Below are positions 5,876-13,485 of a stretch of 64,000 nucleotides of DNA, in pieces (the stretch's first letter is position 1; the number at the start of each line of letters is the position of its first letter). The notes beneath the pieces were generated by a model that was not told the origin of the DNA, did not search any database, and worked only from the letters and a program-made list of their open reading frames with translations. The translations under genes and the position numbers were made by a program. Source of the DNA: Thermoflexus hugenholtzii (GTDB lineage: Bacteria > Chloroflexota > Anaerolineae > Thermoflexales > Thermoflexaceae); assembly GCF_018771565.1 (NCBI RefSeq), contig NZ_CP076326.1, forward strand, positions 2,294,001 to 2,358,000, given 5' to 3'.

Positions 5876-6459
5876 AGCCGGAGGAGGAGCTGACCTTCGT
5901 CCGTGAGGGGATGGCCGCGATGGAGGATTACCTGAGCTCGGATCTGGTCTACTGGACGCTCCGCCCCTTCTCCGCCACGTTCCCTGCCTTCAGCGTGGGG
6001 GGGCTGCTGGAGAGCCTGCGTCGTCTGGAGGCCCGCCGGGAGGAGTTGCCGCCTGGGGCTCAGGCGGAGCTGGAGGCCGTGAAGGGCCAGCTGGCGCGCG
6101 TGCGGGAGGTCCATCCGGATCGATATCGCCGGAAGGTCGAGCGGGAGCTCAGCAGCCGTCTGGACGCCTGGTCCTGGTATCTGGAGGACTATGAGGAGCG
6201 GCCGGAGGAGGCGGCCGTTAGCTATCCCGCTCAGGTCCACATCCGCGTGAAGATCGATCTGTTGCTGGAGGAAGCCGAGCGGCTGGGGTTAGAGGCCCAG
6301 CCGGCCCGGCGCCGGGTGGAGGCCCTGGATCAACGTCTGCGTCGTCACTGGGTGCCTGGCCCCTTCCTGTGGGAGGAGGCGTTGCAACGCGCCTTCCCCC
6401 GGGAGCGCTTCTGGTGGCTGTATGGCCGGCTGCGGGGTCGGGAGGCCGTCGGGGGGTGA
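5872..6459 (+). CDS. Hypothetical protein coupled to the P-loop kinase
   Basis: 195 residues, mostly charged and probably helical (many Glu/Arg/Leu heptad-like stretches), with no signal peptide or membrane segment. I do not recognise the family. The start ATG overlaps the stop of the kinase gene in an ATGA, so the product is probably made together with the kinase and may act with it. Tryptophan/tyrosine-rich patches ('WSWYLEDY', 'FWWLYGRLRG') are its most distinctive parts. Confidence 0.7.
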   Translation: MKPEEELTFVREGMAAMEDYLSSDLVYWTLRPFSATFPAFSVGGLLESLRRLEARREELPPGAQAELEAVKGQLARVREVHPDRYRRKVERELSSRLDAWSWYLEDYEERPEEAAVSYPAQVHIRVKIDLLLEEAERLGLEAQPARRRVEALDQRLRRHWVPGPFLWEEALQRAFPRERFWWLYGRLRGREAVGG

Positions 6460-6463
6460 GGAA

Positions 6464-6492
6464 TTGACAGCGTCCCGGATCGCGGGCATGAT
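6464..6492 (+). promoter_or_regulatory. Sigma-70 promoter of the small transcription unit
   Basis: TTGACA at 6464-6469 (perfect -35), a 17-nt spacer, and CATGAT at 6487-6492 as -10. It begins 5 nt after the stop of the preceding gene. Predicted transcript start is near 6499, giving an RNA of about 200 nt to the terminator at 6660-6700. Confidence 0.65.
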
Positions 6493-6561
6493 CCTCAATG
6501 TTCCGGGCGCCCCCCGCCGATGGCGGGCGCGGCGCCCCCGGATGTGCCATCCCACCGGAAA

Positions 6562-6656
6562 GGAGGTGATGCGACATGGACGAAAAACGTCGGACAGACC
6601 TGAGGGAGGCGGGCCGTCGCATCACCTCCGGTGAGGACCGATAAGCGACGGCCCGC
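6562..6656 (+). promoter_or_regulatory. Two mutually exclusive RNA hairpins around a micro-ORF
   Basis: Stem A is a perfect 14-bp inverted repeat: GGAGGTGATGCGAC (6562-6575), which contains the ribosome binding site, pairs with GTCGCATCACCTCC (6616-6629). Stem B is a perfect 12-bp repeat: GCGGGCCGTCGC (6609-6620) pairs with GCGACGGCCCGC (6645-6656). Both need bases 6616-6620, so only one can form. In A the ribosome site is buried; in B the CACCTCC strand is released into the loop and the ribosome site is free. This is the geometry of an attenuator or translational switch. The switching behaviour is inferred, the repeats are seen directly. Confidence 0.7.
6576..6644 (+). CDS. 22-residue micro-ORF with strong ribosome binding site
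   Basis: Short peptide beginning MDEKRRTDLREAG, highly charged, ending in a TAA. AAAGGAGGTGAT precedes the ATG at near-ideal spacing, the strongest ribosome binding site I noticed in the window. The ORF lies between its own promoter and terminator, with no other plus-strand gene for 5 kb, so it is not the leader of a downstream operon. It could be a functional micro-protein, or the ORF could serve to couple ribosome movement to RNA folding. No known family recognised. Confidence 0.5.
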   Translation: MDEKRRTDLREAGRRITSGEDR

Positions 6657-6659
6657 CGG

Positions 6660-6700
6660 AAGGGGCCGCCCCCGGCGTCGGGAGGCGGCCCCTTCGTTTT
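6660..6700 (+). terminator. Rho-independent terminator of the small transcription unit
   Basis: AAGGGGCCGCC (6660-6670) pairs with GGCGGCCCCTT (6684-6694), 11 bp, followed by CGTTTT. It closes the unit that starts at the 6464 promoter and is back to back with the sigma-factor terminator. Confidence 0.85.
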
Positions 6701-6734
6701 CAGAAAGAAGCCATCCGCAGAGGAGGAGACTCGC

Positions 6735-6767
6735 AAAAAATCGGGGCGCCGTCACACGGCGCCCCGA
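6735..6767 (-). terminator. Rho-independent terminator after the sigma-factor gene
   Basis: Perfect 12-bp stem (6741-6752 with 6756-6767) with a 3-nt loop, followed on the minus strand by six T residues (A run at 6735-6740). It ends transcription of the YceD-sigma pair. Confidence 0.9.
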
Positions 6768-6795
6768 CATCGGATTGCGAGAAGGCGACACCGAC

Positions 6796-8004
6796 TCAGG
6801 TCAGGAACTCCCGGAGCTGGCGGCTGCGACGGGGGTGGCGGAGCCGGCGCAGGGCGCGCCCCTCAATCTGGCGGATGCGCTCCCGGGTCAGCCCGAACTT
6901 CTTGCCCACCTCCTCCAGGGTGTAGCAGCGGCCGTTCACCAGGCCGAACCGCAGCCGCAGGATGCGGGCCTCCCGCGGGCTGAGGGTGGAGAGGATCTCC
7001 TCGATCTTCTCCCGGAGCAGGTTCTGATAAGCGATCTGGTTGGGAGACGGGGAGGATTCGTCCTCGATGAAGTAGCCCAGCTCGTCCTCCTCGTCCTCCC
7101 CCACCGGGTTCTCCAGGCTCAGGGGCTGCCAGGAGACCCGGAACATCCACTCCACCTTGCGGGGATCCACGCCCAGCTCGGCGGCGATCTCCTCCACGGT
7201 GGGCTTACGGCCCAGGCTCTGCTCCAGCTCGTGGGCCACCCGATACAGTTTGCGGATGCGATCGCTCATGTGGACGGGGACGCGGATGGTGCGGCTCTGG
7301 TCGGCGATGGCCCGGGTGATGGTCTGGCGGATCCACCAGGTGGCGTAGGTGCTGAAGCGGTAGCCGCGCCGGTAATCGAACTTCTCCACCGCCTTCATCA
7401 GGCCCAGATTGCCCTCCTGGATGAGGTCCAGGAAGGGGACCCCGCGGCCCATGTATTTCTTGGCGATGCTCACCACCAGGCGGGTGTTGGCCTTGATCAG
7501 GTGCTCTCGGGCTTTGCGGCCCTCCTCCACCAGCTTCTCCAGCCGCGCCCGTTGCTGAGGGGTCAGCCGCCGCGCCTCCCGCAACCGCCGGGCGGCCTGC
7601 TGCCCGCGGAACACCTGCCGGGCCAGCCGCACCTCCTCCTCGCTGGTCAGCAGGGGGACACGGGCCATCTCCTTCAGGTAGAGGCCGACCGTGTCATCCA
7701 CATCGATGTCCGCCAGATCGTCGTCCTCCCCCAGGACCACATCGCTGGTCTCGAAATGCTCCTCGCTCTCCTCTTCCTCTTCTTCTTCGATCTCCCGGAG
7801 GAACCGTTCCTCTTCCTCGATGTTGATCCGGGTGTCGTCGTAGAGCTCGATGCCCGCTTCCTGCAGCCAGAGGCAGATCTCATCCAGCTCCTCGGGGGAT
7901 TCCTCCGCCTCCGGATAGATCTCCAGGATGTCCGTGACGGTGAGATAGCCCTGTCGCTCCGCCAGGGACAGCAGCTCGCCGATTACTTCGTCGAAGCTCG
8001 CCAT
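6796..8004 (-). CDS. rpoD: Principal sigma-70 factor (RpoD/SigA type)
   Basis: 402 residues. Directs RNA polymerase to -35/-10 promoters. Seen: a short acidic region 1.1-like N-terminus, region 1.2 '[13 protein letters not shown]', region 2 with '[19 protein letters not shown]' and '[11 protein letters not shown]' for -10 recognition and melting, region 3, and a region 4 helix-turn-helix '[19 protein letters not shown]' for the -35. The start is at 8004, after GAGGAG; the frame is open further upstream but without a ribosome site. The yceD-like gene lies 61 nt upstream on the same strand and shares its promoter. Confidence 0.93.
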
Positions 8005-12069: not shown

Positions 12070-13485
12070 ATGGAAGAGGCGATCGAATCCAGAGAGTCTG
12101 ACCGCAACGGATGGGCATCCATGGCACGGATGCGACGCGTCGGCGCGATGGGGCTGCTCCTCCTCAGCGGGCTCCTGCTCGCCCTGGACCCCTCCGGCAT
12201 CCCGGCGGCGCGGTGGCTGCGGGAGGGAGATGCCCTCCGGGCAGAGGGACAGGTGCTTTCCGCCCAAAAGGCCTATCAGAGGGCCCTGACCCTTCGCTCC
12301 GCTGACCCGGCCCTCTGGCATCGCATCGCCCAGCTGCATATGGCTTTGGGGGAGCTGGAGGAAGCGGAGGCCGCCTGGGCCCGGGCAGCGACGCAGGGGG
12401 ATCCCTGGGCGGCGCGTGGTCGGGCGGAGCTGGCGACCCGCCGCGGGGATTGGAACGAAGCCCGACGGCGCTGGGAGGACTGGGCGCGTCGCCATCCCGA
12501 GGACCGGGAGGCGTATATGCGCTGGGCGGAGGCGGCCCTGGCCATCGGGGACGAGGCAGGCGCGCGGGCGGCGTGGGAGGCCGGGCTTGCCCGCCGCCCG
12601 GAGGATCCGATGTTCCGCTTCCGGCTGGGCCTTCTGCAGGGCGCCACCGATCCGGAGGCGGCCCGGGCTTTGCTGAACGGGCTTCCCGCTCCTCTCTCCG
12701 GCTGGGCGGCGCTGCTCCCGGATCCCACCCAGCCGTCGACCCTGCGGCGATGGGGGCTTGCCCTGGTCGGGGGGCGTTACTGGGGGGAAGCCCGAGGGGC
12801 CCTCGCCCGCTGGCTGGAGCAGGATCCGAGGGATCCGGTTGCCATGGCCGCTATGGGATATGTCCTGGGGCGGCTGGGGCAGGAAGGGGAGTGGTGGTTG
12901 CAACGGGCCCTCGCGGGGGCCGAAGCCCCGCCGGAGGCCCATTACTTCGCCGGCCTTTACCTGCTGGAGCGAGGGCGCTACGCCGAGGCCCAGGAGCGCT
13001 TCGCCGCCGCTTACCAGCAGGATCCCCATCCCCTTTACGCTCTGGAGCGGGGACGCGCCGCCATGCTGGCCGGCGATCTCCTCACCGCCGAGCGCTGGCT
13101 TCGCCAGGCGGCGGCGGACGCCCCGGGGAACATCGAGGTCTGGAATGCCCTGGCCGCGCTTTACCTGGGTCATCAAATCGGGCTGGGGAAGGGGATCGAG
13201 GCGGCTCTGGAGCTCCTGCGGCGGGATCCCCAGCGGGTAGAGGGCTACGAGTGGCTGGGATGGGCGCGCTACCTTCAGGGGAACTTCACCGAGGCGGAGC
13301 GGCTGCTGCAGCAGGCCGTGGGGATGGATCCAGAGCGCGCCTCGGCCCATTACCGGCTGGGCGTGGTGATGGCGGCGGAGGGGCGATGGGCCGAAGCCCG
13401 TCGTCTCCTGGAGCGGACGGTGCTCCTGGATCCGACGGGGGAGTTCGGCGGCCGCGCCATCCGGATGCTTCACCGGATCCCATAG
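12070..13485 (+). CDS. TPR-repeat protein with N-terminal membrane anchor
   Basis: 471 residues. After a positively charged N-terminus, one hydrophobic segment ('GLLLLSGLLLALDPSG') suggests a signal anchor, followed by about ten tetratricopeptide-like units ('AYQRALTLRSADPALWHRIAQLH', 'FTEAERLLQQAVGMDP'). TPR proteins act as scaffolds in complexes. The start is uncertain: the ATG at 12070 has no good ribosome site, and an ATG at 12121 just before the hydrophobic segment is an alternative. Its partners are unknown. Confidence 0.78.
   Translation: MEEAIESRESDRNGWASMARMRRVGAMGLLLLSGLLLALDPSGIPAARWLREGDALRAEGQVLSAQKAYQRALTLRSADPALWHRIAQLHMALGELEEAEAAWARAATQGDPWAARGRAELATRRGDWNEARRRWEDWARRHPEDREAYMRWAEAALAIGDEAGARAAWEAGLARRPEDPMFRFRLGLLQGATDPEAARALLNGLPAPLSGWAALLPDPTQPSTLRRWGLALVGGRYWGEARGALARWLEQDPRDPVAMAAMGYVLGRLGQEGEWWLQRALAGAEAPPEAHYFAGLYLLERGRYAEAQERFAAAYQQDPHPLYALERGRAAMLAGDLLTAERWLRQAAADAPGNIEVWNALAALYLGHQIGLGKGIEAALELLRRDPQRVEGYEWLGWARYLQGNFTEAERLLQQAVGMDPERASAHYRLGVVMAAEGRWAEARRLLERTVLLDPTGEFGGRAIRMLHRIP

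Follow-up and report, generated by a model that had tools for sequence, protein, structure and literature searches.

A predicted RNA gene family of Chloroflexota with the anatomy of an attenuator and no operon behind it

Our analysis of a window of 64,000 nt from the genome of Thermoflexus hugenholtzii has brought out an element with the anatomy of an attenuator but without the operon: a predicted RNA gene of about 200 nt, located between rpoD and a small ORF. As judged by comparing genomes, it belongs to a single-copy RNA family found in most of the sampled genomes of its class and with related forms elsewhere in the phylum, in which a promoter, a strong Shine-Dalgarno sequence (SD), a short ORF, an internal anti-SD, a hairpin (B) and a terminator have been kept together as one unit. 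We consider it rather probable that this gene is an attenuator-like switch that is gated by ribosomes and stands alone, no gene following it, and that its product would be the RNA, acting in trans.

All parts of the element lie on the plus strand. The TTGACA-17-CATGAT promoter (6464-6492) that an earlier note had read from the letters is the sole sigma-70-like site in 6300-6900, where shuffled sequences lead one to expect 0.0. Downstream of it, the 5' UTR contains a hairpin (6505-6537) that is supported by the window fold and the genus alignment and is variable or absent in relatives, some of which have almost no 5' UTR. A CATCCCA motif (6548-6554; YATCYYA in the class), recognizable in folds and alignments, is conserved just upstream of the SD; a local pairing with GATG, in the 3' half of that sequence, is possible and would make the motif a third partner of the site. 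The SD itself, AAAGGAGGTGAT (6559-6570), is complementary to the full 12 nt of the 16S tail. The genome (3.3 Mb) has AAAGGAGGTGAT in two places: in the element and on the strand opposite its single GGATCACCTCCTTT site, which matches a 16S 3' tail in sequence. The tail's own locus aside, no 12-nt stretch of the genome other than the element's SD is a perfect complement of the tail. The first G of its GGAGG stands 14 nt from the start of the micro-ORF (6576-6644; ATG at 6576, TAA at 6642-6644), whose 22 codons encode MDEKRRTDLREAGRRITSGEDR, and the very strong ribosome site that had been claimed for this ORF is borne out. The Thermoflexus copies have a second SD-like GGAGG within the ORF (6601-6608 in the window), right before the 5' arm of stem B, which is not seen in most members outside the genus. 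Directly before the stop codon there is a small hairpin, CGGT-GAGG-ACCG (6629-6640), and the alignments contain similar mini-hairpins in many relatives.

Two perfect inverted repeats organize this region, and compensatory changes in relatives support each of them. Repeat A (6562-6575/6616-6629) has 14 bp, its 5' arm covering the SD and its 3' arm, within the ORF, carrying the anti-SD ATCACCTCC. Repeat B (6608-6620/6645-6657) has 13 bp, one more than the earlier note had counted, and it has the five bases 6616-6620 in common with repeat A. A third hairpin (6659-6695; 15 bp with one mismatch) and a short T tract, TTCGTTTT, complete the element at 6700. This is the T-tailed terminator of the earlier note, of which the hairpin stands, with compensatory changes between Thermoflexus species; the T tract is modest and a terminator scan made no call. 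As a whole, 6499-6700 folds with an energy of -124.4 kcal/mol versus -96.3 kcal/mol for shuffled sequences (z = -5.7). Directly past the element, at 6740-6768 on the minus strand, lies a strong terminator of the convergent rpoD, so that the RNA gene is boxed between two terminators.

The same predicted transcription unit recurs across the family: strong promoter matches lie upstream of 124 of 157 copies (5 when shuffled), and terminators are found downstream of 110 of the 157 (3 when shuffled). That the element does not lead an operon had been suggested by the lack of any plus-strand gene behind it, and indeed the next convincing one in the window is near 12070, about 5.4 kb away. Moreover, the neighbouring genes change from clade to clade and their orientations look random, a gene context that rules out an operon leader.

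The distribution of the family has been followed at increasing distances. Within the genus, seven of the eight other species keep the SD, the ORF, both stems and the terminator hairpin; SD, ORF and stems are nearly invariant amid diverging flanks, and the terminator hairpin maintains its pairing through changes on both arms. Outside the window's own family but within the class, two weak BLAST matches turned out to follow this plan, albeit with other stem sequences. When 396 class genomes were scanned with a pattern, 26 of them matched, with 0 for the reversed control, and a scan of about 85,000 species returned 76 loci, of which 56 pass the architecture test; the records of these 56 are labelled as Chloroflexota lineages, with one unclassified bacterium. 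We did not retain as members the other 20 loci, which are without a comparable hairpin and ORF, nor two matches in viral contigs that have only a short motif in common with the element, nor three loci with the SD pattern but no hairpin B (L024, L025 and L037). A covariance model matches 248 of 395 class genomes (63%), almost always once per genome, including 154 of the 249 of good quality; this single-copy state also speaks against a repeat or mobile element. A second model, built solely from members outside Thermoflexus, recovers the window copy with E = 1.9e-12 over the loci searched and 8e-11 over the genome, the next match being at 0.28. As for the model controls, none of 12 genomes of other lineages matched, and of 149 from the phylum to which a Streptomyces record belongs 1 did, which is about chance level. 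Other classes of Chloroflexota are matched more weakly by the first model (E of about 1e-7 to 1e-3). In many of their copies the SD is unchanged, the ORF has 14-16 codons (for example MGSSKRMGVTAGEAR) and a hairpin follows downstream; some of the weaker matches are probably false. Class-wide and other-class covariance searches left some clades with no detectable copy, and among the families f9, f10, f19, f39 and f43 several had no match even in good genomes.

The earlier note knew of no described element of this form, and this assessment holds for the sources searched. At gathering threshold, Rfam 15 recognized only tRNAs in the window and 16 relatives; permissive scans gave sub-threshold, inconsistent matches, nothing that would make the element a known Rfam RNA. 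Also, no such RNA was found described in a search confined to the openly licensed papers of PMC. An RNA that is absent from Rfam 15 and occurs in 63% of the sampled genomes of a large class, with related forms across the phylum, is probably of importance to the cell.

Covariation of the stems in relatives had been named beforehand as the refuting test, and compensatory changes were found in both, strongly in B and modestly in A. In stem B, double-sided changes occur at 11 of 13 pairs among 36 sequences and at 12 of 13 among 69. In stem A, the core of 8-9 bp is paired in 98.9% of the cells of the 69-sequence alignment, which had itself been fitted to the model, and there are seven double changes from AU to GC, all at one pair; this test of stem A is limited in that 56 members had been collected with a fixed SD and a near-fixed anti-SD. 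The overall covariation score is 0.358, versus 0.159 for shuffled and at most 0.106 for slid alignments. In one family, the SD GGAGGAGGTGATG and the loop CATCCCTCCTC form a pair that is shifted yet matching. Taken at the level of sequence, these changes establish that both pairings are under selection.

Whether the two stems exclude each other, as had been claimed, is less clear-cut. The overlap at 6616-6620 is real, but strict exclusion does not follow from it, since the 8-9-bp core of stem A could form beside B. The order of the parts (SD, 5' arm, anti-SD, 3' arm) is indeed that of an H-type pseudoknot, in which both pairings would coexist, the SD being bound to the loop of hairpin B until a ribosome, a protein or a ligand opened the site. 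Within the class the overlap is mostly 2-7 nt, leaving 8-9 bp of stem A beside stem B, and the almost constant pairing of this core is in keeping with such a structure. However, in several relatives from other classes 9-12 nt are common to both stems and each takes up nearly the whole anti-SD strand, which bars coexistence there. We regard the pseudoknot as a possible reading, with perhaps one chance in a few of being right.

The alternative reading, a switch between two folds, is supported by folding, which was carried out without pseudoknots. When transcripts are cut before the 3' arm of stem B, the SD is predicted to pair downstream in 152 of 158 sequences; in full transcripts, it still does so in 26 of the 158. 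In the window RNA, folded from its predicted start, stem A stands at 0.91 in the cut transcript and at 0.03 in the full one, and stem B at 0 and 0.97, respectively; the predicted switch persists at 75 °C. If the fold is started at the CATCCCA motif, the window RNA is near balance, with the SD 0.54 paired, which shows that the prediction depends in part on the 5' UTR. With regard to an RNA thermometer, in which melting close to the growth temperature would expose the SD, the predicted free fraction of the SD rises gradually, from 0.26 at 37 °C to 0.49 at 75 °C, with stem B steady at 0.95. The proposal that one stem buries the ribosome site and the other frees it is therefore backed, across about 160 sequences, by predicted folds and covariation, and the model predicts a switch from nascent to full-length RNA.

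The ORF bears the mark of selection at its end rather than in its product. Family ORFs mostly have 14-22 codons, and in 141 of 161 copies (close relatives being counted separately) the first stop in the ORF frame falls between -14 and +6 nt from the 3' arm of stem B; in the other two frames, the first stop lies in this interval in only 5 and 10 copies. In 39 close pairs, the synonymous excess is slight (48 changes versus 33 expected) and nonsynonymous changes in the linker are near neutral (51 versus 56 expected). The comparison thus shows selection on where the stop codon lies and hardly any on the peptide sequence. Because stop placement is kept, the synonymous excess is weak and the frame through the anti-SD varies, what counts seems to be that the ORF is translated as far as its stop, more than which peptide results.

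That the gene encodes a functional microprotein, with the structure of the mRNA autoregulating translation, is an unlikely explanation in our eyes. In its favour, the ORF is always kept open, the peptides of the main group have MDxxSS and VASP in common, and there is the slight synonymous excess. But these common residues coincide with conserved RNA motifs, the linker changes almost neutrally, and between clades the peptides are completely different, the anti-SD being read in different frames as VASP, RRIT or RRHL; we rejected a conserved microprotein on these grounds. Serine codons are strongly enriched in most members, with 292 AGY and 26 TCN (292/318), and AGT or AGC codons at positions 2-8 (as in L201, L179, L163 and L234) generate a GTAGTA-like RNA motif that Thermoflexus does not have. 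A serine-codon attenuator was discarded, the Thermoflexus linker having no serine codon.

Returning to the ribosome-gated switch that we favour, its steps would be as follows. In the nascent RNA, the anti-SD would pair with the SD and block initiation; after synthesis of the 3' arm, the anti-SD would be drawn into hairpin B, leaving the SD free. A ribosome reading the ORF would then open hairpin B and halt at the edge of the 3' arm, such that ribosome access would set the fold of the RNA. We infer that the RNA, and not the peptide, is the product, that it acts in trans, and that it senses ribosomes. Since the SD is complementary to the full 16S tail and the anti-SD copies this tail, the element may report on free 30S subunits. 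More tentatively, one can imagine a phylum-wide gauge of free ribosomes, in which 30S subunits compete for the SD with a copy of their 16S tail that the RNA itself carries, and translation of an ORF without other meaning sets the fold, and through it the activity, of a trans-acting RNA; we would not give this extension more than a modest chance. An attenuator without operon, if true, would be a clear case of short-ORF translation serving only RNA structure, and cultured Chloroflexia appear to have relatives of the element in which the idea can be tested.

The element has to be contrasted with several known systems. Like the leader-peptide attenuators of the trp type, it has a short ORF that overlaps competing stems and, as we propose, a fold chosen by ribosome position. 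It differs from them in several respects: in none of the clades examined does an operon follow it; its terminator (6659-6695) is separate from stem B, which ends at 6657; stem A is predicted to block the SD of the ORF itself; and the family has neither a common run of a single amino acid nor a conserved peptide. Dual-function small RNAs that contain a short ORF, such as RNAIII, SgrS, SR1 and PhrS, are stand-alone genes with promoter, short ORF and terminator, as predicted from sequence for the element, and RNAIII has anti-SD-like loops. In contrast to them, the anti-SD of the element varies together with the element's SD, which points to a main partner within the RNA itself. A small RNA derived from an attenuator, rnTrpL of Sinorhizobium, has a 14-aa ORF and can act in trans (PMC7298713). 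The phylum also has a candidate RNA motif, Chloroflexi-1 (RF01698), which has been reported only from Chloroflexus aggregans (PMC2864571); no Rfam family matched any copy of the element that was tested.

In the mRNAs of type I toxins such as aapA and hok, transient hairpins block the SD during transcription and then give way to a more stable fold (PMC6733600), and the predicted early block of the element's SD is likewise replaced by a later fold. The mechanism modelled here would thus have something in common with attenuators and with metastable toxin mRNAs, without the defining features of either. Indeed, that the element is itself a toxin-antitoxin mRNA of this kind is very improbable: its peptides are short, polar and variable, with no hydrophobic helix and nothing toxin-like; predicted folds leave its complete transcript translatable, the opposite of toxin mRNAs; and there is no sign of an antisense RNA, no minus-strand promoter having been found in 6300-6900. 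Less credible still are a repeat element and hairpins that arose by chance, as they easily do in GC-rich DNA, given the single copy, the class-wide conservation with covariation, which contradicts chance, and the near absence of matches in other lineages. On the minus strand of another locus (L013, about 1350-1450), a hairpin AAAGGAGGTGATGCCCATC...GGGCATCC precedes an ORF that seems to encode a membrane transporter, and is possibly an unrelated leader that sequesters an SD.
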